Part shown: positions 12,664 to 64,000 of the stretch, one piece after another
Position numbering within the stretch: the stretch's first letter is position 1
Layout of the letters: each line of letters begins with the position of its first letter
Origin: Tetrahymena thermophila SB210
Taxonomy: Eukaryota; Ciliophora; Oligohymenophorea; Hymenostomatida; Tetrahymenidae
Length of the DNA stretch: 64,000 nucleotides
Reading direction: 5' to 3'
NCBI RefSeq assembly: GCF_000189635.1
Contig: NW_002476463.1
Coordinates: 1,178,001 to 1,242,000 of the forward strand
Notes under the pieces: generated by a model
The model's database searches: none
Told to the model about the DNA's origin: nothing
Seen by the model: only the letters and a program-made list of their open reading frames with translations
Position numbers and translations under genes: made by a program

Positions 12664-14354
12664 ATGAATTAAAAGTTACTATTTATACTAATTGCCTTAG
12701 CATCCATCTTTTTTAACTAAGTAGCATGCTCAGAAAAGGTAGAAATTGATCTTGTACATACCTTAAGATAAAAATTTGATATAAAGAGTGTAACATCTGG
12801 AGAATTTTAAAAAATTAGGAATCAAAAGATTTAGCAAATAATTTAAAAGTTCGAAAAATAAAATAAAGCATAGATAAATAAGTTAAATTTAGCATCAACA
12901 CCTCAAGAAATAGAAGAAAATATTCATAGAAGCTATTCTACATTCAAAGAAATCGTGACTCTCACAAATTTTATTAACTTTTAATATATTGGTTAAATCA
13001 AAGTTGGATCATCAAATTAGTAATTTACAGTACTTTTTGATACAGGCTCGAATCAGCTTTGGTTACCTTAGGATTAATGCTAGTAATGCACTTTTGCAAA
13101 TAGTAGATATACATGTCAAACAAATACTTGTTCTAATACAACTTAAGATATTGCATACGGTTAAGGCAAAGTGAAAGGATATAATTCGAAAGATTTAATC
13201 ACTGTAGGTAATAAGTCTACTTTTTACCCTTTTCTTTCTGTCTTTTAAGCTTAAGATTTAGATGGATTCTAGGTAAAATATTATTAATATGCTAATATAT
13301 TAATATAAAATATTTGTTTTAAAATTAAATTTAGAGTGATGGAATAATGGGAATGGGTGTATCTAAAAAGGACAGTCTAGTTAATAAATTGTATATGGAG
13401 AAAAAAATAGAAAAAAATTAATTTTCTTTTAAGCTTTCTTCAATTGATTTAAGTTAGTATTCAAAAGACCAACAAAACATGGCAACAGATAAGAATTCAT
13501 AATTAATATTAGGTGGATATGATGATTAGTTAATAAGTGAAGACAGTATAAATTATTTCTAGGTTGTAAGCAAAAGTTATTGGGCTATTAAAATGCGTTC
13601 AGCAAGATATAATAAGTAAGACATTTTTAATGGCAAAAATGAATTAAGATTAGCTTTGATCGACACTGGTACTAGTTTGATTCATATGCCTACAGCTGAT
13701 TATTAAGCATTTAATAGGACGGTATTAGAAAAATCAAGCAATAAAGGATGCTTCGAGTTTGGATTGCTTATATGTGTGTGTAATTAGAAACAAATACCTA
13801 ATTTCCCAACAATTAGTTTAACTTTTACAGATGTTGATAATAATGACCAAATAATTAATATTTTACCAGAATATTACATCATGTATTAAGATGGTTTTTG
13901 TGTATACTTGGTAGCTGAATTTCCTGATATGGGCATTAACAATATGTGGATATTAGGAGATGTTTTTATGAGATAGACATATAACATATTTGACTATGAT
14001 AGACAAGCTATTGGTATTGTTAATTTGTAGCCAGAAGACGAAGAAGGTCATCAAATAAAAAGTGGTACATTTAGTGGCTTTGGTAAATTAGTTATAATGC
14101 TATTAGTAATTGGTATTGGAGCCTTTTTAGCAAATTACATTTATTAAAATTACATTAAAAACAATTCCAATAACTAATAACAAAACTATCAAGGCAACTA
14201 TTAATAATATTAGCCTTAGTAAAGCTATTAACCTCCTTAGTAATATTACTAATAATAGCCTCCTCAGCAATACTATCAATAGCCACCAGCTTAATATAAT
14301 AACTAAAACTATTAAAACATTCCTCTTTAGCCATTAAACTAGTAATAAGTTTGA
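12664..14354 (+). CDS. Membrane-anchored pepsin-like aspartic protease (family A1)
   Basis: Two exons (12664-13272, 13335-14354) join to 543 codons, 542 residues. Residues 1-23 form a signal peptide (KLLFILIALASIFFNQVAC). Both catalytic motifs of the A1 family are present: DTGSNQLW with Asp at about residue 126, and DTGTSLIHMP with Asp at about residue 313. The hydrophobic ILGDVFMRQTYNIFDY segment before the end of the catalytic domain matches the conserved 'ILGDvFlr.yy.vfD' block. The sequence between has cysteines that could pair as in pepsins. A single TM segment at about 455-475 (VIMLLVIGIGAFLANYIY) follows, and then a roughly 65-residue tail almost wholly made of Q, Y, P and N. The layout is a type I membrane protease facing the lumen of the secretory or phagosomal system, with a low-complexity cytosolic tail. 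The active site looks complete. Confidence 0.95.
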
Positions 14355-41649: not shown

Positions 41650-42077
41650 TTAACTTCATGCGGTAACATTCAATTTTTTTAATAATTATTGTTTATTTAT
41701 ATATGATTTAAGAGAGTATGAAATCTTATATTATTTTCATTTTTATTTTAAAAATTGTAAAATGCCAAATAATAAAAAATTTATAATAAATCATATTATA
41801 AAAGAATATCCTTCACATTCTAATTTAAAATAATTAATAGTTTCTAAATTAACTCAAAAACAATTTACATTTCAAAAAATAAAACTTTAGTTAAATATAA
41901 CTAAACTAATTTTACATAAGTTGTATTTTTTCTAAAAGAGTTTGTATAATAATAGTATTTAATATATTAACAGCAATAAATAAAATACAAAATAGCTTTA
42001 AAATTTAAGATTAGCTTTAAAATTTAAGATTGGCTTTTAAATTATAAAACTAATAAAGTGCTAATAGTTATTATACT

Positions 42078-45000
42078 TCAGAAGTGTTCATAAATCATAG
42101 GATACAGATAATTTTTAACATGCTCTCTAGAGTTGTAAATATATTAGAGTAGTTTTTCTTCTGTACTAAAAAATGTAACTACTGGCTTTTAGTTGTAGAA
42201 AATATTTCTAAAATCTGTATGTTCTTACTATGATAAATCCTAATTTAAAATTAAAATCAATAGTTCTACTTGTAAGTTGATTAAAATAGCACAAAGCTCG
42301 TCAAATAATTATTAATTTTTGATTTAAAGTTACTAGTCAGTGATAAAAATAAGATATGTGTAAAATTCTTTAACTCTTTATTATTATTATTAATCATTTT
42401 TTTCATTATATTTCTTTTCAGAAATATAATAAGATATTTTTTCATCAGTATTAAGTATAAACTACTTTATGGCTGCTTAAATACCTTAATGAAATAAAAA
42501 CTCACCAGAAATAAGACATGGATTTTAACTGATTTATATTTAATTTGATTGACTTTCTAAAAGAGGACTTTATTCATAAATGATAGAAGTATTAACTTAT
42601 GATTACATCATTTTTTACTTTTATTCATAATTTTGATTATCTTATTTCTAAGGATTTTGGTTAATTGCATTGTTTTATTATTATTTTGATTAATTTATTT
42701 AAGACAATTAATCTGTTTTTTGATATTCTTTCTATTAATTTTTATTGGATACAATTTAAAAATAGGTCTATTGGTTATTTTAAATAAATTTATTGACTTA
42801 CTCTTAATTATTATTATTACTATTATTTAAGGTTTTACAAATATTTTCTTCATTCAGCAGTTTATTTTGAGTAAAGCTTTTCTTTAAAATTGTAGGAGAC
42901 TAAATACTATCCATAACTTCAATAATATTATTGTTTTCATAGCTCTTTAGCATACTATTCCCTTAGTTAATATTATCGATACATTCTGAATTTAATCCAG
43001 AAAAACTTTCTCCTAAATTATTTGGTTTTGCAAACTTGGAAACTTGAAAATTTTGGCTGTCTAACATACAATTCTATTATGATTTAAATTTATTTTTGTT
43101 AACAATATTATCACTTGAATCAAAATTATTAAACTCATTTTTATTATTTGAATTTAGTTAGCTAAGTTGTGGGCTTGAATCTACAAATTTATTTTCTGAG
43201 ACGAAATTATGAGAAATTATTTATTCATAACTGCCTATTTTAAAGAATTCTTCCTAATTTTCGGTCTTGTGATTTTTTAAATTATTTCTTTATGGACTAA
43301 AAGTGTATTTCCTTATTAGAGAGTCTGGATTCAGTAATGAATCATCTTGATTAAACTAAGATAATAAGAAGTTTAATTATTGATTTTAATTATTTGTAAT
43401 ATGTTATGCTCTAGTTTTAAGTCTTTGCTAAAGCTTTTGTGCAAATGAAGGTTTTTTATTTTATTAAGTTTTATTATCACTGAATTTTATTTCTTCAAAT
43501 TATATGTTAAAGGAATCTTTTAAGTTTTTTTATTCATTTTAAATTGGTCTACTAAATGAAGATCGATTTTATTCTGATTTTTAGATTTTTTTTTAAAGAG
43601 TATCTTAAAAAATACTCTTAGTTAGTTAAATACGGTTTTAAAAGAAAACATTTTAACTTTGTTAAAGTTATTGAACTTCATTCTAATTGTATTTAAATAT
43701 TCCATATTTCTCTAAACTTTTAAAGTCTTTATTAAGTAACTTTTCGAAGAATATTTTGATGAAAATATTTTCAAATATTTCTAAATTTGAATTTAAAGTT
43801 TTTAAATTGATAAATTGCACTAGCTGCTAATAGTTATGATCTTCAAAACAATAGTTTAGCAAACCGATTTGATCTCTTTCTTTAAATAAAATATCTTTGA
43901 TTAAATCACTTTAAACAGTATAAGATCTAAATAGAGAATATTTGCTAAAGCAAGCTTAAATAGTGCATACTTTAAAATAACTATCAGGGAAAATTTAATA
44001 TTTATTAGCTATTTCTTATAGTTCTGGATTATTAATATTTTATTATTTGAATAGTTTACATAGCATATTAAATGCCTGTCTTTTAAGATGAGGTAAATAA
44101 AGTACACATTTTTCTAGCATATTCGTTAAAATAGTCCCAGCATTTTTGTAATTTTTTAGAGTAATTTAATGTTGAGCTTATTCAAGAGCATAGTACTAAA
44201 AGAAAATATCGGAACTGAATTCATAGCGACATAGCTTGAATTAATCAATTACTTTTTTTACTTAAAAGTAGCATTTTTAATTTGAAAAATTTTCAATTCG
44301 AGTGCTTTTTCTTTGTTTAATTTTATAGTTTTGTTTCTTAATTGATTGCTTACTTTGACTTACAGTTTTAGTTCTGGAACGATCAATGCAACTCGAAGCA
44401 GATAATTGTTATTGATTCGATTATGTTAGCTTATCAAATAAGTCCTTTAAGGCATATTTTAAATGTGCATTTTTATAATTTCTATAACTGTCAGGTAAAT
44501 ATTTTTGAAGTTACTATCTATTTTTATCATTATTCTAAATTGGGGATTCTAAAAAACTAAAAATGTTATTTTAATACTCATATATACAAAAATGTTTCTA
44601 AAAATTATTATCCTTCTGCTCTTTAGATTTATCATCTTCACTTTTTAGATCATTCTTTTTAAATTTTATCAGGTAAAAATTGACAAATTAATCTAAGATT
44701 TGAATAGAATCTGACAGAGAGTTATTCAACTTATTTGTTAGAAGTTATAAATAACACTCATACATGAATCTCTTATTAGAATCTGGCAAATATAACTTGC
44801 TTATACTTATTAATTCATGAACTTGTTCAATTAATACTTCTTAATGATATGTCTCTTTGCTTTATACAGCAAATGAATTAAGTGCTTTTATTAAATTGAG
44901 TTTTCTATTGTACAAATTCCAAAAATGGTCATTTTTTTCTAAATATTGATAATTATTATCTTTTGATTCTTTATTATTTAGGTGCCTTTCAAACTTAAAT

Positions 45001-47135
45001 TGGTATAGTGCTTATTCTTGATCACCATTCTGCTTATATATATTTACAAAATCTTTGATGTTTTTTACTATCTGAACTCCATTTATCTCATGGTCGTAAA
45101 GTCCTAACTCATATTTTGCAAACACAACTGATTTCTAGAAATTTTCTATTGATTCTTAATATCTACCACATTTATAGTGAATCACACCTATGTTATTATA
45201 GCAAACTCCTAGCGCTCGGTTATTTCTAAATTTATCAAAGTGTTAAATTTGAATATTCAAGTTGATAAGAGAAGTGCTTTCATTATCTTTGTACAAGTTT
45301 TATGTAGTAAAAGCCAGCACCTTAAAAAGATTTTGAAAACTGTCAAACAATTGCTAAGTATCACTTGAAAAGCATTGCTCCTTTTAACTTTATTCCTACT
45401 ACTGTGAATCATAGTTATTCAAATCTTCGAAAATCCACATATCTTTGTTTATATCTTCTATGGTTGGTAAATACTAAACCAAATTATCTTTAACTTACTT
45501 TTTTTAATCATTGTCTTGAGAAATCATTTAATTTAAAATCTTTGTTAAATGAATAACAGGATTTAAAAATGAAGTCCCAAACTACAATGAGTATTTTCCA
45601 TGTATTATTAAAACTAGAATAGTTATTCCTAAACTGATATAAGAAAATAGTACATTGTAATATAATATTTATTGCTAAATGCTATTTGAATATTATTCCA
45701 TTTTTTCTTTTGAAAGAATGTCTAAAAATAGAAAAGCATTTTTAACCTAAAACTTCGGAGCGGGATTAACTTTTCTTTAATATTCATATTTTGGTACTTT
45801 ATCAATGAAGGTGACTATATTTTTAATCACTAAACACTCAGTCCCGTTTCTGTTGTATTCGAACAGATATTAATCAGAAAAAGTAAATCCAAATAAATCT
45901 GCAAAGCTTGTGTTTTTTATGATAAAGTCATTATTTTATGTGATATTGTTTAAAAAGTATTTTGCTTAGTTTTAATCTTATAAGTATTATGTTTCTATGT
46001 CTTTTATAGTTACAACCTAAGTTCTTTTCAAATTTTATTCAGAATCATAAACCACAGTGAGGTAAGAAGGATTCAAAACAAATTGTAGCTTTGAATTATT
46101 ACCAAAATTTTCGAAATATTTTGGAATTAAAGTGAGATCTAATGTCAAACAAAGAATAGAATATTTAGTATATTCTGAATTAGGGTCATCTGACTCATAT
46201 TTTAGTCTTCTTTTACAAAAAGGTTGTAATATAAGAGGAGTTACATCTGTATATAATATGGAAGGGTTAAAAACCATTGTTGAATAATTTCCCATAGTTG
46301 GGCTGTAATAATATCTGCATCTAACATCCATTAGATACTATCCAATATAAGGGCAACCTTTAGGAGGAACATACCCTTTGTAAGTAACATTAACACTAAC
46401 AGTGTAGATTAATCCATCATAATCAAATCCATAATAAAAGTCTTTGAATTTCATCCATCTTCCATTTTCGTTTTTATTATCTAGCTAAATAGATTTCCAT
46501 ATTGATTCAATGCGTATTGTTTCATCTAACTCTTTTAACTATTTTTAATCTAATTCTGTTAAGAAAGATTAACTAACTTAATGCCTTTTTTAAATTAAAT
46601 AAATTCATCAAGAAAAACCAATAATAAATAAGTAAAAATCAGAGGAAAGAATGATTATTAAGCAATAATTTTACCAAGTAGAAGTCATGACTGAGTTTTT
46701 TTTAAACATATTTAATACAATAGGGTTTTCAGTTTAATTATAAGTCCTATCTATATTGTGAATAGCTGGTATGTACTTACTATTTTTTATTATTTTGCCC
46801 TGTATAACATTCCCAAAAAATTCATTTACTAAGTTCATCTACCAATCAATTTTTTGAGTTTGCGAGCTTAGCTGATATACTATTGCAGAATTTAGGAGTT
46901 TGGAACTTGTGATCTAATCTTAGAATAAATTATTTGAGAAGTCTTTAACTATTTAGAAGCAGACATCTTAAAAGTAAATTAGTATTAAATAAGTAGAGAC
47001 TACTAATATAAGAGTTGGAAAGAGAGTGATTACTAATATAACTGATTGCGTTTTATGATTCTACAAAAATTTGCCTATAAAGTTTAGACCTTAGCCAGAT
47101 TCTTTGTTTTGGTTTTTAGAAAAATTGTATTTCAT
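42078..47135 (-). CDS. Cache-like receptor with TPR and C-terminal vWA-like domain, copy 1
   Basis: Two exons (47135-46675, 46584-42078) with a 90-nt intron give 1,656 codons, 1,655 residues. A cytosolic N-terminus (MKYNFSKNQNKESGQG) is followed by TM1 at about 32-56, an extracellular region of some 400 residues, and TM2 at about 466-486 (LFSYISLGITILVLII). The extracellular part, with YIPAIHNIDRTYN, FYYGFDYDGLIY and LTLDLTLIPKYFENFG, reads like a Cache-type sensor. Right after TM2 a HAMP-like LNPVIHLTKILNQM appears. Cytosolic TPR-like helices start near 607 (RALGVCYNNIGVIHYKCGRY). A 600-residue N/Q/S-rich linker follows. The last 110 residues (TYLIFITDQ... ELCAILINLQVELLILIL ... YPMIYEHF) resemble a degenerate vWA/Rossmann domain. 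It would be a plasma or ciliary membrane sensor; the ligand is unknown. No break is seen. Confidence 0.88.
46585..46674 (-). other. Conserved single intron of the tandem receptors (copy 1)
   Basis: A 90-nt GT-AG intron splits the codon of a Trp in the extracellular region. The same joint is at 53128-53223 in copy 2 (96 nt) and 59091-59185 in copy 3 (95 nt). Donor GTAAAA and acceptor AAAAAG are the same in all three copies. The length differences leave the coding frame unchanged. Confidence 0.85.
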
Positions 47136-48377
47136 TTATGGTTGATTTCTTGATATTACTTTTTGTTGATTTTGATTATCAAATTGTTTTTCTACTAACC
47201 AAATATAAATCAAAAGAGTAATTAAGAGTTTTCCTTCTTAACATAATAATTAATTTATCTATTATTTAGCATTTATTATCGTAAAACTAAAAATTAGTTT
47301 AATTTTGATATTTACCATGAGTTTATTTCCATATTGGTCATTTCTAATTAACATAAATTATATTTTATATTTTAAATTGCGATAATTAGTTTTACATTAA
47401 GAATAAAGATTATTTGTAAAAAAATTGCATTCATTTTTTTTTTTGCGAAAATTTCTGTTTAGTTTTAGTAAAAATTGAAAATCAGTTTTTATTTTTAAAA
47501 AACAATCTTTATTCAGATGAATTTTTAATAAAATGTGTATTTTTGATGGATTTTGATAAATTATAAAACTTTATTTTCCTTTTATAATAAATAGAAAATT
47601 ATCAGATATACGAATTATCTTTTAGCGGATCAATATTAATTGAATTATTATGAATTCCTAAAATATAAATTAAATAAAAAAAAGATAAATTAAAGAGTTC
47701 AAAAATTATTTTATTTAAATTTACTTTTTAATTAGAGTTTAAAATTACTTTTATTCAATAAAAATTATTATTAATAAAAACAAATATGAAATTTTTACTT
47801 TTCTTTTTAAAAAATACTTATTTATTTTAGAAAGAACTTTATTATTTTCCTTTTTAAATATTTTTCATTTTATCAAATTATTTTCAAAACATAAAAAGAT
47901 ATTTTTATATTTAAAAAGCACTATTAATATTTTAATAACAAGATTAAAATTTTAATAATATCTACATAATAAGAAGTAACTTCTAGAATTTTATTTACAT
48001 TATATTTAAACAATAAGTATTTTTTAAGATAAATTTTTTATTATTATTTAATTTAATAGTTATTTATTATAATATTTTTTGTTTTTTTAATCAAAAATTT
48101 TTTGATAAGTATATTTTTTAAATTAATAAACTTTGTCAATTTATTATAATTTTTATTTTTCACATTTAAATTTGATAGAAGATTAATAATGGTTGATATA
48201 AAATAAAATTTATCATCATAAAAATTTAAATTTATTTATTTTTTGCATGATTTAAACGCATTTTAGCATTCTTTTACACATTTTGCTAATATTTTATAAT
48301 TTATTTTATTAAGTACTGTATCTTTTTTTTTAACTATTATTGTCAATTTTTATATTTAAGTATAAAAAATATTTATT
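47136..48377. other. Upstream flank of copy 1
   Basis: About 1.2 kb of highly AT-rich sequence upstream of the copy 1 start. From about 47760 onward it is recognisably related to the flank of copy 3 (for example aaacgcattttagcattc at about 48255 and 60407). It should hold the promoter of copy 1. No exon is seen. Confidence 0.65.
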
Positions 48378-48440
48378 ACTATAAAATTAATTAAAATACT
48401 TAAAAATATGAAATATGAAGAAACAATGAAAAAATACAAT
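48378..48440. repeat. Junction repeat before unit 2
   Basis: About 62 nt (ataaaattaattaaaatact, then aaaaatatgaaatatgaaga and on to aatac) found almost unchanged at 54342-54403. It sits directly at the end of units 2 and 3, but is missing before unit 1. It marks the duplication junction and shows that the unit boundary moved with the last duplication. Confidence 0.8.
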
Positions 48441-48662
48441 AGTTTTTAAATTAACTTAAAAACAATTTACATTTCAAAAAATAAAACTTTAGTTAAATAT
48501 AACTAAACTAATTTTACATAAGTTGTATTTTTTCTAAAAGAGTTTGTATAATAATAGTATTTAAAAAATAAAGAGCAATAAATAAAATACAAAATAGCTT
48601 TAAAAATTAAGATTAGCTTATAAATTATTAAACTAATAAAGTGCTAATAGTATTTAATTTCT

Positions 48663-51600
48663 TCAGAAATGTTCATAAATCATAGGTAACAGATAATTTT
48701 TAACATGCTCTCTAGAGTTGTAAATATATTAGAGTAGTTTTTCTTCTGTACTAAAAAATGTAATTACTGGCTTTTAGTTGTAGAAAATATTTCTAAAATC
48801 AGTATGCTCTTACTACGATAAATCCTAATTTAAAATTAAAATCAATAGTTCTACTTATAAGTTGGTTAAAATAGTACAAAGCTCATCAAATAATTATTAA
48901 TTTTTGATTTAAAGTTACTAGTCAGTAATAAAAATAAGATATGTGTAAAATTCTTTAACTCTTTATTATTATTATTAATCATTTTTTTCATTATATTTCT
49001 TTTCAGAAATATAATAAGATATTTTTTCATCAGTATTAAGTATAAACTACTTTATGGCTGCTTAAATACCTTAATGAAATAAAAACTCACCAGAAATAAG
49101 ACATGGATTTTAACTGATTTATATTTAATTTGATTGACTTTATAATAGAGGACTTTATTCATAAATGATAGAAGTATTAACTTATGATTACATCATTTTT
49201 TACTTTTATTCATAATTTTGATTATCTTATTTCTAAGGATTTTGATTAATTGCATTGTTTTATTATTAATTTAATTAATTTATTTAAGACAATTAATCTG
49301 TTTTTTGATATTCTTTCTATTAATTTTTATTGGATACAACTTAACAATAGGTCTATTGGTTACTTTAAATAAATTTATTGACTTACTCCTAATTATTATT
49401 ATTATTATTTAAGGTTTAACAATAATTTTCTTCATTCAGAAGTTTATTTTTGGTAAATCTTTTCTTTAAAATTGTAGGAGACTAAATACTATCCATAACT
49501 TCAATAATATTATTGTTTTCATAACTCTTTAGCATACTATTCCCTTAACTAATATTATCAATGTATTATGAATTTAATCCAGAAAAACTTTCTCCTAAAT
49601 TATTTGGTTTTGCAAACTTAGAAACTTGAAAATTTTGGCTGTCTAACATGTAATTCTATTATGACTTAAATTTGTTTTTGTTAACAATATTATCACTTGA
49701 ATCAAAATTATTAAATTCATTTTTATTGTTTGAATTTAGTTAGCTTAATTTTGGGCTTGAATCTACAAATTTATTTTCTGAGACGAAATTATGAGAAATT
49801 ATTTATTCAGAACTTCCTACTTTAATGAATTCTTCCTAATTTTCAGTATTGTGATTTTTTAAATTATTTCTTTATGTACTAAAAGTGTATTTTCTTATTA
49901 AAGAGTTTGGATTCAGGAGTGAATCATCTTGATTAAACTAAGTTAACTATAAGTTTAATTATTGATTTTAATTATTTGTAATATGTTATATATTAGCTTT
50001 AAGTCTTAGCTGAAGCTTTTGTGCAAATGTAGGTTTTTTATTTTATTAGGCTACATTATCACTTAATTTTATTTCTTCAAATTAATTGTTAAAGGAATCT
50101 TTTAAATTTTTTTATTCATTTTAAATTGGTCTACTAAATGAAGATCGATTTTATTCTTATTTTTATATTTTCTTACAGTTTTATAAGAAAGCTTTTTAAC
50201 TTTGTTAAAGTTATTGAATTTCATTCTAATTTTATTTAAATATTCCATATTTCTCTAAACTTTTAAAGTCTTTATTAAGTAACTTTTCGAAGAATATTTT
50301 GATGAAAATATTTTCAAATATTTCTAATTTAGAATTTAAAGTTTTTAAATTAATAAATTGCGCTAGCTGCTAGTAGTTATGATCTTCAAAACAATAGTTT
50401 AGCAAACCGATTTGATCTCTTTCTTTAAATAAAATATCTTTGATTAAATCATTTTAAACAGTATAAGATCTAAATAGAGAATATTTGCTAAAGCAAGCTT
50501 AAATAGTGCATACTTTAAAATAACTATCAGTGAAAATTTGATATTTATTAGCTATTTCTTATAGCTCTGGATTATTAATATTTTATTATTTGAATAGTTT
50601 ACATAGCATATTAAATGCCTGTCTTTTAAGATGAGGTGAGTAAAGTACACATTTTTCTAGCATATTTGTTAAAATAATCCCTGCATTTTTGTAATTTTTT
50701 AAAGTAATTTGATGTTAAGCTTATTCAATGGCGTAGTACTAAAAGAAAATATCTGAGCTGAATTCATAGCGACATAGCTTGAATTAATCAATTACTTTTT
50801 TTACTTAAAAGTAGCATTTTTGATTTGAAAAATTTTCAATTCGAGTGCTTTTTCTTTGTTTAATTTTATAGTTTTGTTTCTTAATTGATTGCTTACTTTG
50901 ACTTGCAGTTTTAGCTCTAGAACGATCAATCCAACTCGAAGCAGATAATTGTTATTGATTCGATTATGTTAGCTTATCAAATAAGTCCTTTATGGCATAT
51001 TTTAAATGTGCATTTTTATAATTTCTATAACTGTCAGGTAAATATTTTTGAAGTTGCTATCTATTTTTATTATTATTCTAAATTGGGGATTCTAAAAAAC
51101 TAAAAATGTTATTTTAATACCCATATGTACAAAAATGTTTCTAAAATTTGTTATCCTTCTGCTCTTTAGATTTATCTGTTTCATTTTTTAGTTCGTTCTT
51201 TTTAAATTTTATCAGGTAAAAATTGACAAATTAATCTAAGATTTGAATAGAATCTGACAGAGAGTTATTCAACTTATTTGTTAGAAGTTATAAATAACAC
51301 TCATACATAAATCTCTTATTAGAATCTGGCAAATATAACTTGCTTATACTTATTAATTCATGAACTTGTTCAATTAATACTTCTTAATGATATGTCTCTT
51401 TGCTTTATACAGCAAGTGAATAAAGTGCTTTTATTAAATTGAGTTTTCTATTGTACAAATTCCAAAAATGGTCATTTTTTTCTAAATATTGATAATTATT
51501 ATCTTTTTATTCTTTATTATTTAGGTGCCTTTCAAACTTAAATTGGTATAGAGCTTATTATTGATCACCATTCTCCTTATATATATTTGCAAAATCTTTG

Positions 51601-53684
51601 ATGTTTTTTACTATCTGAACTCCATTTATCTCATGGTCATAAAATCCTAACTCGTATTTTGCAAACACAACTGATTTCTAGAAATTTTCTATTGATTCTT
51701 AATATCTACCACATTTATAGTGAATAACACCTATGTTATTATAGCAAACTCCTAGCGCTCGGTTATTTCTAAATTTATCAAAGTGTTAAATTTGAATATT
51801 CAAGTTGATAAGAGACATGCTTTCATTATCTTTGTACAGGTTTTACGTAGTAAAAGCCAGCATCTTAAAAAGATTTTGAAAACTGTTAAATAATTCCTAG
51901 GTATCACTTGAAAAACATTGCTCCTTTTAACTTTGTTCCTACTACTGTGAATCATAGTTATTCAAATCTTCGAAAATCCACATATCTTTGTTTATGTCTT
52001 CTATGGTCGGTAAATACTAAACCAAATTATCTTTAACTTACTTTTTTTAATCATTTTCTTGAGAAATCATTTAGTTTAAAATCTTTGTTAAATGAATAAC
52101 AGGATTTAAAAACGAAGTCCCAAACTACAAAGAGTATTTTCCATGTATTATTAAAACGAGTATAGTAATTCCTAAACTGATATAAGAAAATAGTACATTG
52201 TAATATAATATTTATTGCTAAATGCTATTTGAATATTATTCCATTTTTTCTTTTGAAAGAATGTCTAAAAATAGAAAAGCATTTTTAACCTAAAACTTCG
52301 GAGCTGGATTAACTTTTCTTTAATACTCATATTTTGGCAATTTATCAATAAATGTTACAATATTTTTAATCACTAAACACTCAGTCCCGTTTCTGTTGTA
52401 TTCAAACAGATATTAATTTGATAAAGTAAATCCAAATAAATCTGCAAAGCTTGTATTTTTTATGATAAAGTCATTATTTTATGTGATATTGTTTAAAAAG
52501 TATATTGCTTAGTTTTAATCTTATAAGTATTATGTTTCTATGTCTTTTATAGTTACAACTTAAGTCCTTTACAAATTTTATTCAGAATTGTAAACCACAG
52601 TGAGGTAAGAAGGATTCAAAACAAATTAAAGCTTTGAATTATTACCAAAATGTTCAAAATATTTTGGAATTAAAGTGAGATCTAATGTCAAACAAAAAAC
52701 AGAATATTTAGTATATTCTGAATTAGGGTCATTTGACTCATATTTTAGTCTCCTTTTACAAAAAGGTTGTAATAAAAGAGGAGTTACATCTGTAAAAAAT
52801 ACGGAAGGGTTAAAAATCATCGTTGAATAATTTTCCATAGTTGGGTTGTAATAATATCTGCATCTAACATCCATGAGATACTATCCAATATAAGGGCAAC
52901 CTTTAGGAGGAACGTACCCTTTGTAAGTAACATTAGCACTCACAGCGTAGATTAATCCATCATAATCAAATCCATAATAAAAGTCTTTGAATTTCATCCA
53001 TCTTCCATTTTCGTTTTTATTAACTAGCTAAATAGATTTCTTTATAGATTCAATGAGTATTGCTTCATGTAACCTTTATAACTATGTTTGATCTAATTCT
53101 GTTAAGAAAGATTAACTAACTAAATGCCTTTTTTAAATTAAATAAACTGATAAAAAAAACAACTAATAAGTAAAGAAAATAGTAAAAATTAGAGGAAAGC
53201 ATTATTTAAAAAAATAATTTTACCAAGCAGAAGTCAAAATAGAGTTTTTTTTAAACATTTATAACACAATCTGGTTTTCTTTTTAATTGTAAATCCTATC
53301 TAAATTAAGAATAGCTGGTATGTACTTACTATTTTTTATTACTTTGCCCTGTATAACATTCCCGAAAAATTCATTGACTAAGTTCATCTACCAATCAATT
53401 TTTTAAGTTTACGAGCTTAGCTAATATACTATTGCAGAATTTAGGAGTTTGGAACTTGTGATCTAATCTTAGAATAAATTATTTGAGAAGTCTTTAACTA
53501 TTTAGAAGCAGACATCTTAAAAGTAAATTAATATTAAATAAGTAGAGATTACTAACACAAGAGTTGGAAAGAGAGTGATTACTAATATAACTGACTGAGT
53601 TTTATGATTCTACAAAAATCTGCTTATAAAGTTTAGACCTTAGCCAGATTCTTTGTTTTTGTTTTTAGAATAATTGTATTTCAT
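48663..53684 (-). CDS. Cache-like receptor with TPR and C-terminal vWA-like domain, copy 2
   Basis: Two exons (53684-53224, 53127-48663) with a 96-nt intron give 1,642 codons, 1,641 residues. The architecture is that of copy 1: TM1, extracellular Cache-like region, TM2 with HAMP-like follow-on, TPR helices, N/Q-rich linker, vWA-like end. It is 14 residues shorter, largely from loss in the linker around 50155-50205. In the sensor region it reads NPTMENYSTMIFNPSVFFTD where copy 1 has SPTMGNYSTMVFNPSILYTD, a set of changes near one another. The C-terminus is YLLPMIYEHF where copies 1 and 3 have YLYPMIYEHF. The exon sum divides by three and the frame is open throughout, so I take it as a functional gene. 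Confidence 0.87.
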
Positions 53685-54144
53685 ATATGATAGATTTCTA
53701 TTCCTTTATGTGCGTATTGATTTTCAAACTGTTTGTTTTTCTACTAACCAAATATAAATCGAAAGAGTAAAATTTTCCTTCTTATGAAAATTTTATAATT
53801 AATTTATCTGTTATTTCACATTTATTTATGAAATTTACCACCAGTTTATTTTCAAATTAACATAATATAAATTAAATTTTGTATAATAAATATTTATATG
53901 TCGTATTATATTAAGACAAAGGATTAATTGTATAAAAAATTGCTTTCATTTTTTTTTGAGAAAATCTCATTTTAATTTTTGTAAAAATTGTTAATAAAAA
54001 AAATAATTATGTAATTTTTACTTATCCTTTTTAAAAAACAATTATTTTAATTCTTATTAAATATTTTTCATATTATCAAATTATTTTAGAAAGATAAAAA
54101 AGATATTTTTTATTTAAAATTTATTATAAATATTTTGATAGCAA
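53685..54144. other. Upstream flank of copy 2, shared part
   Basis: AT-rich sequence upstream of copy 2. It is still alignable to the flanks of copies 1 and 3 (for example ctactaaccaaatataaatc at about 53740) up to about 54145. It presumably carries the promoter. Confidence 0.6.
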
Positions 54145-54341
54145 GAGAATTTACAATCGGGGCGTTTATGGATCAGTAGGTAGAAAAAAAAATATTCTAC
54201 ACAAAATAATGAGTATAATTTTATTCGTATTTGCTATTTTATAAAATAATTAATTATTTTTACATTTATATATATATATATTATTTCTTTTTATATTTCT
54301 TACTTCTTTTTATATTTTTATATATTTCTTATTTCTTTTTA
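54145..54341. other. Segment unique to the unit 2 flank
   Basis: Here the flank departs from those of copies 1 and 3. It begins with a GC-richer stretch for this genome (caatcggggcgtttatggat at about 54156), followed by AT repeats of ttctta/tttata type at 54265-54335. It replaces roughly 450 nt present in the other two flanks. It may be a deletion scar, an insertion, or the trace of an excised element. Confidence 0.6.
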
Positions 54342-54403
54342 TTATAAAATTAATTAAAATACTTAAAAATATGAAATATGAAGAAACAATGAAAAAATAC
54401 AAT
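54342..54403. repeat. Junction repeat before unit 3
   Basis: Second copy of the 62-nt junction sequence also found at 48378-48440, almost identical. It directly abuts the homology of unit 3. Confidence 0.8.
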
Positions 54404-57400
54404 AGTTTTTAAATTAACTTAAAAACAATTTAAATTTCAAAAAATAAAACTTTAGTTAAATATAACTAAACTAATTTTACATAAGTTGTATTTTTTCTAA
54501 AAGAGTTTGTAAAATAATAGTATTTAATATATAAACAGCAATAAATAAAATACAAAATAGCTTTAAAAATTAAGATTAGCTTATAAATTATTAAACTAAT
54601 AAAGGGCTAATAGTATTTAATTTCTTCAGAAATGTTCATAAATCATAGGATACAGATAATTTTTAACATGCTCTCTAGAGTTGTAAATATATTAGAGTAG
54701 TTTTTCTTCTGTACTAAAAAATGTAATTACTGGCTTTTAGTTGTAGAAAATATTTCTAAAATCAGTATGCTCTTACTATGATAAATCCTAATTTAAAATT
54801 AAAATCAATAGTTCTACTTGTAAGTTGATTAAAATAGCACAAAGTTCGTCAAATAATTATTAATTTTTGATTTAAAGTTACTAGTCAGTAATAAAAATAA
54901 GATATGTGTAAAATTCTTTAACTCTTTATTATTATTATTAATCATTTTTTTCATTATATTTCTTTTCAGAAATATAATAAGATATTTTTTCATCAGTATT
55001 AAGTATAAACTACTTTATGGCTGCTTAAATACCTTAATGAAATAAAAACTCACCAGAAATAAGACATGGATTTTAACTGATTTATATTTAATTTGATTGA
55101 CTTTATAATAGAGGACTTTATTCATAAATGATAGAAGTATTAACTTATGATTACATCATTTTTTACTTTTATTCATAATTTTGATTATCTTATTTCTAAG
55201 GATTTTGATTAATTGCATTGTTTTATTATTAATTTAATTAATTTATTTAAGACAATTAATCTGTTTTTTGATATTCTTTCTATTAATTTTTATTGGATAC
55301 AACTTAACAATAGGTCTATTGGTTACTTTAAATAAATTTATTGACTTACTCCTAATTATTATTATTATTATTTAAGGTTTAACAATAATTTTCTTCATTC
55401 AGAAGTTTATTTTTGGTAAATCTTTTCTTTAAAATTGTAGGAGACTAAATACTATCCATAACTTCAATAATATTATTGTTTTCATAACTCTTTAGCATAC
55501 TATTCCCTTAACTAATATTATCAATGTATTATGAATTTAATCCAGAAAAACTTTCTCCTAAATTATTTGGTTTTGCAAACTTAGAAACTTGAAAATTTTG
55601 GCTGTCTAACATGTAATTCTATTATGACTTAAATTTGTTTTTGTTAACAATATTATCACTTGAATCAAAATTATTAAATTCATTTTTATTATTTGAATTT
55701 AGTTAGCTAAATTTTGGGCTTGAATCTACAAATTTATTTTCTGAGACGAAATTATGAGAAATTATTTCTTCCAAACTTCCTACTTTAATAAATTCTTCCT
55801 AATTTTCAGTATTGTGATTTTTTAAATTATTTCTTTATGGACTAAAAGTGTATTTCCTTATTAAAGAGTGTGGATTCAGGAGTGAATCATCTTGATTAAA
55901 CTAAGTTAACTATAAGTTTAATTATTGATTTTAATTATTTGTAATATGTTATATATTAGCTTTAAGTCTTAGCTGAAGCTTTTGTGCAAATTAAGGTTTT
56001 TTATTTTATTAGGCTATATTATCACTTAATTTTATTTCTTCAAATTAATTGTTAAAGGAATCTTTTAAATTTTTTTATTCATTTTAAATTGGTCTACTAA
56101 ATGAAGATCGATTTTATTCTTATTTTTATATTTTCTTACAGTTTTATAAGAAAGCATTTTAACTTTGTTAAAGTTATTGAATTTCATTCTAATTTTATTT
56201 ATATATTCCATATTTCTCTAAACTTTTAAAGTCTTTATTAAGTAACTTTTCGAAGAATATTTTGATGAAAATATTTTCAAATATTTCTAAATTAGAATTT
56301 AAAGTTTTTAAATTAATAAATTGCACTAGCTGCTAGTAGTTATGATCTTCAAAACAATAGTTTAGCAAACCGATTTGATCTCTTTCTTTAAATAAAATAT
56401 CTTTGATTAAATCACTTTAAACAGTATAAGATCTAAATAGAGAATAATTGCTAAAGCAAGCTTAAATAGTGCATACTTTAAAATAACTATCAGTGAAAAT
56501 TTGATATTTATTAGCTATTTCTTAAAGCTCTGGATTATTAATATTTTATTATTTGAATAGTTTACATAGCATATTAAATGCCTGTCTTTTAAGATGAGGT
56601 GAGTAAAGTACACATTTTTCTAGCATATTTGTTAAAATAGTCCCTGCATTTTTGTAATTTTTTAAAGTAATTTGATGTTAAGCTTATTCAAGAGCATAGT
56701 ACTAAAAGAAAATATCTGAGCTGAATTCATAGCGGCATAGCTTGTATTAATCAATTACTTTTTTTACTTAAAAGTAGCATTTTTGATTTGATAAACTTTC
56801 AATTCGAGTGCTTTTTCTTTGTTTAATTTTATAGTTTTGTTTCTTAATTGATTGCTTACTTTGACTTACAGTTTTAGCTTTGGAATGATCAATGCAACTC
56901 GAAGCAGATAATTGCTATTGATTCGATTATGTTAGCTTATTAAATAAGTCCTTTATGGCATATTTTAAATGTGTATTTTTATAATTTTTATAACTGTCAG
57001 GTAAATATTTTTGAAGTTACTATCTATTTTTATCATTATTCTAAATTGGGGATTCTAAAAAACTAAAAATGTTATTTTAATACTCATATGTACAAAAATA
57101 TTTCTAAAAATTATTATCCTTCTGCTCTTTAGATTTATCATCTTCATTTTTTAGCTCATTCTTTTTAAATTTTATCAGGTAAAAGTTGACAAATTAATCT
57201 AAGATTTGAATAGAATCTGACAGAGAGTTATTCAACTTATTTGTTAGAAGTTATAAATAACACTCATACATGAATCTCTTATTTGAATCTGGTAAATATA
57301 ACTTGCTTATACTTATTAATTCATGAACTTGTTCAATTAATACTTCTTAATAATATCTCTCTTTGCTTTGTACAGCAAGTGAATTAAGTGCTTTTATTTA

Positions 57401-60400
57401 ATTGAGTTTTCTATTGTACAAATTCCAAAAATGGTCATTTTTTTCTAAATATTGATAATTATTATCTTTTTATTCTTAATAATTTAGGTGCCTTTCAAAC
57501 TTATACTGGTATAGAGCTTATTCTTGATCACCATTCTGTTTATATATATTTGCAAAATCTTTGATGTTTTTTACTATCTGAACTCCATTTATATCATGAT
57601 CATAAAATCCTAACTCATATTTTGCAAACACAACTGATTTCTAGAAATTTTCTATTGATTCTTAATATCTACCACATTTATAGTGAATAACACCTATGTT
57701 ATTATAGCAAACTCCTAGCGCACGGTTATTTCTAAATTTATCAAAGTGTTAAATTTGAATATTCAAGTTGATAAGAGACATGCTTTCATTATCTTTGTAC
57801 AGGTTTTATGTAGTAAAAGCCAGCACCTTAAAAAGATTTTGAAAACTGTTAAATAATTGCTAGGTATCACTTGAAAAACATTGATCCTTTTAACTTTATT
57901 CCTACAACTGTGAATCATAGTTATTCAAATCTTCGTAAATCCACATATCTTTGTTTATGTCTTCTATGGTCGGTAAATACTAAACCAAATTATCTTTAAC
58001 TTACTTTTTTTAATCATTGTCTTGAGAAATCATTTAATTTAAAATCTTTGTTAAATGAATAACAGGATTTAAAAATGAAGTCCCAAACTACAAAGAGTAT
58101 TTTCCATGTATTATTAAAACTAGCATAGCTATTCCTAAACTGATATAAGAAAATAATATATTGTAATATAATATTTATTGCTAAATGCTATTTGAATATT
58201 ATTCCATTTTTTCTTTTGAAAGAATGTCTAAAAATAGAAAAGCATTTTTAACCTAAAACTTCGGAGCTGGATTAACTTTTCTTTAATACTCATATTTTGG
58301 CAATTTATCAATAAATGTGACTATATTTTTAATCACCAAACACTCAGACCCATTTCTGTTGTATTCGAATAGATATTGATTTGAAAAAGTAAATCCAAAT
58401 AAATCTGCAAAGCTTGCATTTTTTATGATAAAGTCATTATTTTATGTAATATTGTTTAGAAAGTATTCTGCTTAATTTTAATCTTATAAGTATTATGTTT
58501 CTATGTCTTTTATAGTCACAATTTGAGTTCTTTTTAAATTTTATTCAGAATTATAAACCACAGTGAGGTAAGAAGGATTCAAAACAAATTGTAGCTTTGA
58601 ATTTTTACCAAAATTTTCGAAATATTTTGGAATTAAAGTGAGATCTAATGTCAAACAAAGAACAGAATATTTAGTATATTATGAATTAGGATCATCTGAC
58701 TCATATTTTAGTCTTCTTTTACAAAAAGGTTGTAATATAAGAGGAGTCACATCTGTAAAAAATACAGAAGGGTTAAAAACCATCGTTGAATAATTTTCCA
58801 TAGTTGGGTTGTAATAATATCTGCATCTAACTTCCATGAGATACTATCCAATGTAAGGACAACCTTTAGGGGGAACATACCCTTTGTAAGTTACATTAAC
58901 ACTCACAGTGTAGAGTAATCCGTCGTAATCAAATCCTTAAAAAAAGTCTTTGAATTTTATCCATCTTCCATTTTCGTTTTTATTAACTAGCTAAATAGAT
59001 TTCCATATTGATTCAATGAGTATTGCTTCATCTAACTTTTTTAACTATATTTAATCTAATTCTGTTAAGAAAGATTAACTAACTAAATGCCTTTTTTAAA
59101 TTAAATAAACTGATAAAAAACAACTGATAAGTAAAGAAAATAGTAAAAATTAGAGGAAAGCATTATTTAAAAAAAATAATTTTACCAAGTAGAAGTCAAA
59201 ATAGAGTTTTTTTTAAACATTTATAACACAATCGGGTTTTCATTTTAATAGTAAGTCCTATCTAAATTGTGAATAGCTGGTATGTACTTACTATTTTTTA
59301 TTACTTTGCCCTGTATAACATTCCCGAAAAATACATTTACTAAGTTCATCTGCCAATCAATTTTTTGAGTTTAAGAGCTTAGCTGATATACTATTGCAGA
59401 ATTTAGAAGCTTGGAACTTGTGATCTAATCTTAGAATAAATTACTTGAGAAGTCTTTAACTATTTAGAAGCAGACATTTTAAAAGTAAATTAATATTAAA
59501 TAAGTAGAGACTACTAATATAAGAGTTGGAAAGAGAGTAATTACTAATATAACTAATTGTGTTTTATGATTCTACAAAAATTTGCTTATAAAGTTTAGAC
59601 CTTAACCAAATTCTTCGTTTTGGTTTTTAGGATACTTATATTTCATATATGATTGATTTCTATTACTCTCTGTTGATGTTAATTATTAAATTGTTTGTTT
59701 TTCTACTAACCAAATATAAATCAAAAGTGTAAAATTTTTTCCTTCTTATGAAAATTTTATAATTAATTTATCTGTTATTTCACATTTATTTATGATATTT
59801 ATCACCAGTTTATTTCCAAATTAACCTAATATAAATTAAGTTTTGTATAATAAATATTTATAATTAGTTTTACATTAAGGCAAAGGATTATTTGTATAAA
59901 AAATTGCTTTCATTTTTTTTTTTTTGAAAAATATCATTTTAATTTTTGTAAAAATTGTTAATAAAAAAAATAATTATGTAATTTTTACTTATCCTTTTTA
60001 AAAAACACTTATTTTAATTCTTATTAAATATTTTTCATATTATCAAATTATTTTTTAGATTTTAGAAAGATAAAAATGATATTTTTTATTTAAAAGGTAT
60101 TATAAATATTTTAATAACAAGATTATAATTTAGACAATATCAATAAAGAAAGAAATAAATTCCAGGTACATTTTAAAGAATAGGTATTTTTTAAGATAAA
60201 TTTTCTTTTTTATTTAATTTAATGGTAATAATAAAATTTCTATTTTTTTCAATCAAAAAATTATTGATAAGTATAATTTTTAAATTAATAAGTTTTGTCA
60301 ATTATTTATTATTTTTCATAATTAAATTTGAGAGATTAAAATTGATTAATATAAAATAAAATTATATCATAAAAAGTTCAATTAATTTTTTGTTGTTGCA

Positions 60401-60520
60401 TTATTTAAACGCATTTTAGCATTCTATTATTAATTTTGTTTTGCTAATATTTTATAATTTATTTTAAGTATTATATCTTTTTATTTAACTATTATTGCCA
60501 ATTTTTATAATTAAGAGTAA
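54404..60520 (-). repeat. Tandem unit 3
   Basis: Third direct repeat, containing copy 3 and an upstream flank that is alignable to that of unit 1 up to about 60520. After that the sequence is unique. Confidence 0.85.
54626..59646 (-). CDS. Cache-like receptor with TPR and C-terminal vWA-like domain, copy 3
   Basis: Two exons (59646-59186, 59090-54626) with a 95-nt intron give 1,642 codons, 1,641 residues, the same length as copy 2. The N-terminus MKYKYPKNQNEEFGQGLNFI differs from copies 1 and 2 at several places, and the sensor region carries its own changes (MEVRCRYYYNPTMENYS; a Gln-containing GFDYDG segment near 58935 read through TAA). TM1, TM2, TPR, N/Q linker and the vWA-like end are as in copy 1. 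The C-terminal half is almost identical to copy 2. The exon sum divides by three and no break is seen. Shared intron position (just after the extracellular SxxTW) shows that the intron predates the duplications. Confidence 0.87.
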
Positions 60521-60778: not shown

Positions 60779-63700
60779 TCAAGAGTACGAACTGTCTAAT
60801 ATGTTAATATTATTAATATCTTCTAAAATATTGCATAATTATTTATTTTAACTTTAATCAAAATTACATTCCTAATATTCCTGCTCAATGAATATGTTTT
60901 CGTTTATAAATCCTTTAGAGTTATTGTTAATAAACTCATTTTTGAGAAGGTTTTATTCCACTTTTTGATGTGCATTTTCGTAGCATGGTAGTTAATTTAT
61001 TTATTACTGTTGAAGTTATTATTTTTAGTAAATTTCTTCAACCTAGTTTCCATTTTTATTATTTTGCACAGCTTCTTCGTTAGTTTAAGTTGGGATTTTC
61101 TTAATTTCATTTAAATTTAACTTTAATTTCTTTTGAATACCATCCTCTATTTTAGATCTCCCACTGTTTGCATTAGACTAATACTTAAGTTAATCAATTT
61201 GATTAAGAAGGGAATTTTCTAAGCTTTAAGGTTTTCCATAATAATTAAAACTACTTTCATCAGAATCATTTATAACTATTTTATATAATTTACGTTAGCA
61301 AAATGTTAAATTAAAAGATTTGAAAATCATTCTTTTTATTCTTAAATATAACAAAATTAAAAAAATATTTACTTGACTCGTCTGCATATCCAAAGAACTA
61401 TGAATTGTTTCTTTAGTCGATGATTCCATTTTTTAAATTTTCAATATACCTTGATCTTACAAGATTGTTTACTTAGCCCTAATCATTTTCTTCCTATTCA
61501 TCATCTTCTTCATCATCATCATTGTTATTATTCAAATTTTGCTATTTGTGTGAGTGTATTTAATTAACAACGTCTCTTTCATATATTTCATCAATGTCAA
61601 CTCCATTTTTTTTTATTGCAAGAAGAAGTTTGATCATGCTTGATTCCTTGTCTTTGTATGCAGTTAATTTTTTTTCTTGTTCAACTACATACTCTCTCAG
61701 TATTTAGTTTTCATTGTAGACTTCTTCAATTTCTTCTTTTGTTACTTGGAAATTATTTTATTAGTTTTATTTTTATTTTTCTGTTGAATCATTTTCTTTT
61801 AATATTGTCTGAGTTTGTTTTTCTTAAAAGCGGCTAATTTCTATTTATTTTTCATTTGGGCTATTAAACTGCTTTAATGATTATACCTTATACTATTAAG
61901 TTTCTTCTTAATTGGTTTTTGCAATAAACTCGACCTAATTTGTAGGAGACTATCCACTGCTAAGTAACTTTTGATTTTGATTAAAATTAATATTATTATT
62001 GTAGTTGTCAGAAGGAATATTGATGTTATTATTTGTTTTTGATTGATTAGAGTTTGTCACGTTTGTAGAATTGCTAAGCAACTGCTAATTCTCATTTTAA
62101 AGAATGTTAACTTTATTTATTAATTACTTTTTTTCATTGTTAATAGTTTCTACATTCTTTTTTAGCTGCTAAGTTTTTGCTGCAAATATTTTTAAATTCT
62201 TTATTTTAGAATTCATGTCATGCATAAGTGAATCTAAACAAATCTTTAACTTCTAAAGGCTTGATTAGAAATAGATATCTGACGAGCTCAGCTAAGAAAA
62301 GACTTCCATAATTTCTGAATAGCTGTTTTAATCAATTCTTTGTTTTAAAATCTAATCGAATTTCGATGAAATTTTTGCATTTTCTAAATTTAAGTTCTGC
62401 TCAGAGCTCTTTGAGTGTTGCTAATCTTTTTCTGAAATTTTATCCTTTGTATAACTATTTACGGCAGTTGTATCATCACAACTGACATGATTTTATTAAT
62501 GCTAACTCTGCTTATCATTTTAATTTTTGGCTGAACTATGCTACTCTATTAACTGCTATTTCAACAGTTAAAAATTTACTTAGCTTTAATAAATTTATTT
62601 ATTTTATTTAATTAAGAGATCAGTTCCTCCTCCACCTACTCCGCTTTGAATTGAAAGTTAAGGAATTTTTTTAGGCTCTTCTTAATTTTTATTTTAGTTC
62701 AAACTATTTTAAGCAATTTTCTAATGATTTGGGTTTGCAGTAGAAACTGATATGCAACTTTAGCTTTTATGAGATTTCTTTTGTTAAGTCTTTTTAGCTT
62801 ACAATTACTGCTATTGAACAGCAGGCTTTGTGTTATTATTCTTGCCTTAATTTGTTATTTTAGACAAAAAGTTTTTACTTTTTTCTGAACTCCTATGAGA
62901 AGATTTCTCAATATCTCTACTTACTTCATTATTTTAACAATTATTAGTGATTTTTTAATTAAAACTCAAATTTCCTGGTGTTTTGCTAACCTTGATTTAT
63001 AAATAGTTTTAATTATCTGCATTTTAAACGGATTAATTCTAATGATTATGAGGAGTGCAGAAATTTGCTTCTCCCTTTTCACCAGAGTTTAACTATTTCA
63101 GTTACTTTGCACCATTTGAATTAATTTAATTTGTTGAAAGAAGATGGAAATTAGATGTTGTTTAAGGACTAATTCCTTTAAATAGCTTTTTGACATCAAC
63201 TATATTATAAGATCCTTTGGAGCAATCAATATACATATTTTCTTTGCTGTATTTTGGTGAGCTTGAGCTCATAGACGCTACTTTCCTATGTTTTTATGTA
63301 TTGCTTAACTATTAGGTAGGTGATTTAATTCCAGATAAATTGGTGTTATTAAAAAAATTTGGTTAGCTTTACCCTTACTACTAACTTCCTGTAATATTAC
63401 TTTAATTAACACTATTGGAGTTATGAATTTCATTCTACTAGTTGTTTACAAGCTAGTGAATTTGCTTAATAAATTAGTTCTAAGAATGTTGAGGCTATTA
63501 TTACTAGTAAGGTTGATGTGTATCATGATTCATCAATTAGTGATATTGTTATATAGTGAAACTCAATGTTTTTGAAAGTTGATTTGCAGAATTTGATTGG
63601 ACTTAATTTGAATTATTGTTCAAATTCGTTTATTGTAACCCAAACATATTTTTACTGTTAAAATTATTTATGCTGTTGCTGAGAAAAGCTGTGCGCTATT

Positions 63701-64000
63701 ATGGCTAAGATGCTTGAGAAGGTTAAATGCTGTTTTTGTTGGATCCTAAAATTTGCTAGTTGAAATTGTAATTATTATTATTATTATTACTGCTGCTATT
63801 ATTCCCTTAGTAGTGATTAACAGTTGTGGAATTATTTGATGGAAGAGAAGATTTCGAATAAGAAGCATTAGAAGTTAAACCTGATTAGTGTACATTTCTT
63901 GGATGCCCTTTCGCTGAGTTAGAATTTTTATCTCTTTTTTTAAGTTTTTCAAAAATAAGAGTTGCTGCTAAATTTAAATTATCTAAATCAGATTATTTAT
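60779..64000 (-). CDS. Large N/Q-rich coiled-coil protein, C-terminal part
   Basis: The gene runs in from the right edge, so its start is outside the window. Exons 64000-61373 and 61275-60779 are separated by a 97-nt intron (phase 1) and end at TGA 60779-60781, giving more than 1,040 residues. Most of the sequence is N, Q and S (for instance an Asn run at about 63775-63790 and polyglutamine written with TAA/TAG/CAA). A coiled-coil region lies at about 61600-62300 (SLMHDMNSKIKNLKIFAAKT, then QLKKNVETINNEKKQLINKV) and a second helix at EEIEEVYNENQILREYVVEQ. An acidic run (NNNDDDEEDDEQEE) precedes the intron. No catalytic domain is visible in the part seen. Such proteins are often scaffolds, or the long tail of an enzyme whose domain is upstream, here outside the window. 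Confidence 0.75.

Follow-up and report, generated by a model that had tools for sequence, protein, structure and literature searches.

A tandem triplet of Tetrahymena genes predicted to encode membrane receptors with a dCache-like ectodomain and an interrupted vWA-like domain

Results

Three head-to-tail genes share an intron and are under purifying selection

The window analysed here is a stretch of 64,000 nucleotides of Tetrahymena thermophila SB210 (contig NW_002476463.1). Read in the standard code, the window contains no open reading frame of at least 150 amino acids; read in code 6 (TAA and TAG as Gln), long open reading frames emerge, with the genes of the array on the minus strand. A repeat search of the window recovers the array as three-copy repeat families, spaced 6543-6602 and 5962-5963 bases apart, with repeat identity of 91-98% in coding blocks and 71% in the 3' flank of one copy. 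An earlier note on this DNA had claimed three tandem copies; the three-copy repeat families establish that they are real and head-to-tail, and the predicted coding sequences fall inside 41839-60520 (Table 1).

Each copy consists of a short exon 1, carrying the first transmembrane segment (TM1), followed by a long exon 2, and this gene structure is supported by computation. The genes had been described as all open, which holds for the spliced frames (zero stops in copies 1, 2, and 3) but not for the unspliced ones: each copy is split by an intron, and only that of copy 2 is in frame; the copy 1 intron introduces a stop, and the copy 3 intron a frameshift. Reading through its in-frame 96-nt intron makes copy 2 appear continuous. 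We reject the reading of copy 2 as one continuous open reading frame because the intron is conserved in the family: an exon pair with an intron at the same position is present in 19 of 24 family members examined (no exon-1 candidate was found for the other five), and the splice boundary reads TGG at the exon end, TAA..AG in the intron, and GCA followed by T or C at the next exon start in 18 of the 19 recovered pairs, the remaining pair, on contig C51, having another acceptor. The copy 2 intron (53128-53223) has no in-frame TGA, and a gene caller working without RNA would add 32 hydrophobic residues at this point. Start codons and the lack of additional introns are predicted from the sequence.

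Overall pairwise dN/dS values for the three copies are 0.27, 0.26, and 0.29, and computation thus supports the conclusion that the copies are under purifying selection. Individual small blocks show a wider spread, with values of up to 1.44 (first insert, one pair, two synonymous changes) and the lowest values in the TM2/HAMP, TPR, and vWA blocks. Between copies 2 and 3, dS is 0.016 in the linker (49092-50267 and 55055-56230) vs. 0.176 in the ectodomain, a difference that points to a probable gene-conversion patch. The near-identity of this linker could also be taken as a sign that the triplet is an assembly artefact or a set of decaying copies; we regard this as extremely improbable, given the ectodomain dS of the same pair, the three intact frames, overall dN/dS below 0.3 throughout, and arrays of other members elsewhere in the genome.

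Outside the array, the window contains the start of a eukaryotic aspartyl protease gene (12352-13659, plus strand; Pfam Asp E 1.1e-17, model positions 1-82 of 315), the sole Pfam match at E 0.01 among ten other open reading frames of the window scanned. Upstream of the array lies a long N/Q-rich open reading frame (61266-63998, minus strand) that is open at the window edge and whose ATG-started part has no Pfam match at E 0.01. The window has no Rfam match.

Table 1. Predicted coding sequences of the array and features of copy 2 (window coordinates).
Feature	Position	Strand	Details
Copy 1 CDS	42078..47135	-	exon 1 46675-47135; intron 46585-46674 (90 nt); exon 2 42078-46584; 1655 aa
Copy 2 CDS	48663..53684	-	exon 1 53224-53684; intron 53128-53223 (96 nt, in frame, stop-free); exon 2 48663-53127; 1641 aa
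Copy 3 CDS	54626..59646	-	exon 1 59186-59646; intron 59091-59185 (95 nt); exon 2 54626-59090; 1641 aa
TM1, copy 2	53505..53588	-	about residues 33-60; hydropathy
dCache-like ectodomain, copy 2	52251..53504	-	hhalign vs. dCache references; spans intron 53128-53223
TM2, copy 2	52140..52196	-	hydropathy
HAMP-like region with long connector, copy 2	51834..52127	-	hhalign vs. 8 bacterial post-TM2 segments; no Pfam match
Single TPR, copy 2	51657..51746	-	Pfam TPR_1 E 2.3e-5, 24.5 bits, cut-off 27.8
vWA-like N-terminal half, copy 2	50271..50537	-	hhalign 29.9 vs. shuffle maximum 13.7
N/Q-rich insertion, copy 2	49092..50267	-	392 aa, 34% N+Q
vWA-like C-terminal half, copy 2 (the "vWA-like end" of the earlier note)	48666..49091	-	vWA order when joined to N half

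The predicted ectodomain resembles bacterial dCache sensors

Hydropathy analysis places TM1 (about residues 33-60) and TM2 (about residues 465-483) in all three copies; a third hydropathy window, near residues 1570-1600, which exceeds the threshold in copies 1 and 3, is taken as the core of a domain, not as a transmembrane segment. The region between TM1 and TM2 retains an N-x-T sequon in 27 of 29 members, four cysteines in 26-29 of 29, and a fifth cysteine in 21 of 29. The conserved sequon and cysteines would fit a topology with this ectodomain outside the cell.

A Cache domain had been proposed between the two membrane segments. Searches of the family sequences against Pfam and against PDB sequences return no Cache match, a genome-wide search with PF02743 returns four places, none belonging to the family, and in a sequence-profile search just 2 of 29 members exceed the best of 526 scored decoys. 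A first profile-profile comparison (hhalign), of nine ectodomains with three ciliate dCaches, was negative. The positive result came after the addition of five distant members and of eight bacterial references: a 14-member ectodomain profile, from which seven near-identical rows had been left out beforehand, scores 37.3 against the eight bacterial and three ciliate dCaches, as compared with a mean of 11.7 (SD 1.4, maximum 15.1) for 40 column shuffles, 13.5 for the reversed profile, and 12.8 for a vWA reference. Against the bacterial dCache references alone, the score is 34.4 (shuffle maximum 19.0). Because hhalign's own probability for the dCache comparison is 38%, the dCache claim rests on the shuffled, reversed, and cross-reference controls. 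A Cache-like region between the membrane segments is supported by profile-profile comparison but is not recognised by Pfam or PDB sequence search.

The confident part of the dCache alignment comprises 116 columns and corresponds to the membrane-distal subdomain, where it sets the family motif D-x-R-C-R-x-Y-Y on the bacterial motif Y-D-P-R-x-R-x-W-Y. The motif of the amino-acid sensors termed dCache_1AA is given in PMC9796306 as Y121 R126 W128 Y129 Y144 D173. Among the 29 members, the R126 equivalent is R in 23; the W128 equivalent is Y in 23, W in 3, F in 2, and N in 1; the Y129 equivalent is Y in 26 and F in 3, and hence aromatic in all 29; and the D173 equivalent is D in 13, N in 11, S in 2, Y in 2, and Q in 1. 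Tyr occurs at neither the 121 nor the 144 equivalent in any of the 29, so that neither position is conserved and none of the 29 carries the full motif. The three window copies have R, Y, Y, and D at the R126, W128, Y129, and D173 equivalents, and thus share three of these residues with dCache_1AA sensors and differ in having Tyr for W128. Because D-x-R-C-R-x-Y-Y and the D/N-variable site resemble part of the dCache_1AA pocket, our first guess is that the ligands may be amino-acid-like or amine-like and may differ between paralogs.

A putative HAMP-like region and a single weak TPR follow TM2

TM2 is followed by a P-(V/I)-I-H-L-T helix, a connector much longer than is usual in HAMP domains, and then the motif D-T-Q-E-L-x-x-S-F-Q-x-x-F. 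The region could be located in 21 of 30 members, and removal of seven near-duplicates left a profile of 14 rows, which scores 20.8 against 64 post-TM2 residues of eight bacterial receptors; the controls here are shuffles alone (30, mean 7.5, SD 1.5, maximum 12.1). The HAMP-like follow-on proposed earlier is thus backed by a score above the shuffle maximum, but hhalign's probability is 12% and Pfam scans of the three copies and five paralogs return no HAMP match. The same scans of the same sequences return no match to the MCP signalling domain.

Where TPR helices had been proposed, one TPR is visible, but as a single weak repeat that does not reach the Pfam cut-off in the window copies; TPR_1 exceeds its cut-off in one of five distant members (28.3 bits). 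Apart from this repeat, Pfam and PDB sequence searches of these genes return no domain, and the Pfam scans run agree with the proposal that a kinase, cyclase, or channel part is absent. Weak matches to SATase_N and TcdA1_RBD_3 (Pfam), to a PDB chain (E 0.047), to tRNA-synt_1e (E 0.029, one of nine sequences), and, for the joined vWA-like halves described below, to GET4 (Pfam, E 2.7e-4, one of 11 sequences) and LAGLIDADG_3 (E 0.0074, one of 11) are taken as chance.

An N/Q-rich insertion appears to split a vWA-like domain

The C-terminal end of these proteins had been likened to vWA. Pfam and PDB sequence searches of the family return no vWA match. In profile-profile comparison, the recognisable part lies before the N/Q-rich linker: a block F-K-V-x-x-I-x-A-C ... 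D-Q-F-G-L-I-x-Y matches the first half of vWA, with a score of 29.9, as compared with a mean of 10.1 (SD 1.5, maximum 13.7) for 30 shuffles, 12.4 for the reversed profile, and 11.3 for a dCache reference, and with an hhalign probability of 44%. (The family profile has 12 rows, 3 of 15 having been left out; in the vWA reference, 4 of 8 rows were dropped as near-identical and 10 added, giving 14; global hhalign alignment was uninformative.) The region after the linker, to which the earlier assignment referred (residues 1545-1655 of copy 1), is the C half only, and alone it scores 14.8, within the range of shuffles (maximum 16.4). The assignment therefore holds as to the kind of domain, but the recognisable half is not the end.

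Joining the two halves adds nothing to the score (30.0 vs. 29.9 for the N half). In the joined alignment, F-H-x-G-I-x-A-A corresponds to the helix that follows the Thr loop, and I-F-I-T-D to the strand that bears the last MIDAS Asp. Both halves are conserved in 15 of 15 full-length members read, and the insert between them varies from 65 to 536 amino acids. Given the vWA order, the conservation, and the variable insert, the two halves are best read as one domain, and, since a recognisable half precedes the linker, the vWA-like domain of the window copies seems to be interrupted by about 390-410 residues. The N/Q richness of this linker, already noted, measures 33-34% N+Q in the window copies. 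The metal site (MIDAS: DxSxS, Thr, Asp) looks degenerate: in a low-confidence alignment of 15 members, the first Asp is present in 2, Glu occupies the Thr position in 11, and the last Asp is present in 13. With most MIDAS residues lost, metal binding would be unlikely.

Similarity to dCache, to HAMP, and to the N half of vWA is thus supported by computation. An alternative reading treats the similarities to known profiles as incidental and takes either the ectodomain or the split cytosolic domain for a fold specific to ciliates; it would account for the lack of Pfam and PDB sequence matches, for hhalign probabilities of 12-44%, and for weak chance-level matches to unrelated families. We judge it quite unlikely, in view of scores that far exceed those of shuffles, reversed profiles, and cross-references (for HAMP, shuffles only) and of the occurrence, in sequence, of the known order TM-Cache-TM-HAMP.

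The array belongs to a dispersed family with local tandem expansions

The genome searched comprises 101 Mb in 445 contigs, and contains long GGGGTT arrays, for example, among the places listed, at the start of contig C4 (first 314 bases) and near 465.6 kb of the same contig; it is likely to be a Tetrahymena-like macronuclear assembly. A protein search of the same genome yields at least 44 exon matches in five clusters of paralogs (the window, two on C31, one on C308, and one on C51), and a divergent member as query yields the same five clusters, with 54 matches. The C-terminal half as query gives 41 genome matches, with extra places on C311, C244, and C332 and at other positions of C308. Computation thus supports the family size, and 24 exon-2 sequences and 6 divergent members were read.

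In a tree of 29 ectodomains, the window triplet forms a clade (support 1.0) whose neighbour is a gene of C308 (0.95), and a separate clade (1.0) unites the five adjacent genes of C31. The two clades indicate local tandem expansions of dispersed members. No relatives of the ectodomain were found in one scan each of viral and of prokaryote contigs. A description of such a ciliate family was not found in the open-access literature by title or abstract start, which is no proof of novelty, and no open-access paper was found that jointly covers Tetrahymena, the Cache domain, von Willebrand factor, and tetratricopeptide; the one paper found that mentions both Tetrahymena and a HAMP domain deals with actinobacterial cyclases. 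PMC6564038 counts TPR as one of the top domains in species-specific genes of Tetrahymena, and the word Cache is absent from it.

Large tandem arrays that expand locally, together with pocket positions that vary (D173 equivalent D in 13, N in 11, and another residue in 5 of 29), could instead mark a surface family specific to the lineage, whose Cache-derived ectodomain would function in adhesion or in recognising prey, mates, or self, would bind no small-molecule ligand, and would be merely anchored by the cytosolic part. However, the distal pocket largely retains its arginine and aromatic residues (R in 23 of 29 members; an aromatic residue at the Y129 equivalent in all 29), the HAMP-like relay and the cytosolic part are conserved, and dN/dS has its minimum in the TM2/HAMP, TPR, and vWA blocks. 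We consider this explanation unlikely.

Discussion

A chemoreceptor-like reading of the family

These genes are best read as joining an input module that resembles those of chemoreceptors to a non-enzymatic tail of TPR and vWA type. It is probable, on our assessment, that each gene encodes one membrane receptor, with, in order, TM1, an extracellular dCache_1-like sensor, TM2, a HAMP-like relay, a TPR, and a vWA-like domain interrupted by a long N/Q-rich insertion. According to this reading, a small molecule would bind the membrane-distal part of the Cache, TM2 and the HAMP-like helices would transmit the resulting change, as happens in bacterial chemoreceptors, and the relayed change would affect the choice of partner proteins that the cytosolic TPR and vWA-like parts bind. 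Since no enzyme is recognised and the metal-site residues are mostly lost, such a receptor would act by regulated protein binding, and its topology, location, ligand class, relay, and output are all predictions.

A more far-reaching proposal, which we hold to be fairly unlikely, is that the family could be the lineage's own non-GPCR chemoreceptor repertoire: dozens of TM-dCache-TM-HAMP paralogs, with specificity tuned between tandem duplicates at the D173 equivalent (D, N, S, Y, or Q), with a metal-free split vWA and TPR as a wholly protein-binding output, and with an N/Q insert that might be flexible or condensate-forming.

Comparison with known systems

Bacterial dCache_1 chemoreceptors (PF02743; PctC chain 5ltv, chain 3c8c) and the receptors predicted here have in common the order TM-dCache-TM-HAMP, as predicted for the ciliate family, and similarity in the distal subdomain, including a DxRxRxxY-like motif. 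Unlike those chemoreceptors, the ciliate family has no detected MCP domain and has instead a TPR and split vWA-like tail, a long HAMP connector, and extra conserved cysteines.

Another ciliate dCache family is present in the same genome: L031, L032, and L033, close together on contig C9 (about 95-109 kb), and L034 on C17. These four loci match PF02743 with E 1.3e-6 to 2.3e-4, below the cut-off, L033 matches PDB chain 3c8c with 1.6e-5, and the C9 family served as the positive control for the sequence searches. Beyond the dCache, these proteins have a hydrophobic stretch and then a conserved helix, an order also predicted for the array genes; unlike the array family, the C9 proteins (L031-L033) have no TPR/vWA tail within the 3.3-kb loci read.

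Canonical VWA_2 occurs at 49 places in the genome, in several tandem groups (C51, C79, C17, C64, and C220), and none of the 49 is a locus of the array family. Canonical VWA_2 proteins share their block order with the N half, and, in one alignment, with the joined halves; by comparison, the array family has lost most MIDAS residues and has a long insertion before the T-loop helix.

In the alpha2-delta subunits of calcium channels, vWA and Cache are both extracellular. These subunits are likewise eukaryotic proteins with vWA-type and Cache-type domains, and the ciliate proteins differ in that the vWA-like part comes after TM2. We reject a relationship to alpha2-delta because no VWA_N was found by Pfam and because of this position of the vWA-like part. 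The presence of vWA plus Cache in alpha2-delta is named in PMC4822843. According to that paper, Cache domains form the largest superfamily among the extracellular sensors of prokaryotes and are much scarcer in eukaryotes, and eukaryotic sequences were excluded from its model building because their domain boundaries were unclear.

The seemingly interrupted vWA-like domain illustrates how half a domain can be overlooked if an N/Q-rich linker is accepted as it stands. If a large ciliate family has input of the Cache-HAMP type without a recognised bacterial output, this would add a class of eukaryotic receptor. The family would then be a candidate set of sensors for dissolved molecules in genetically tractable cells, with ligands that could be tested on purified ectodomains.
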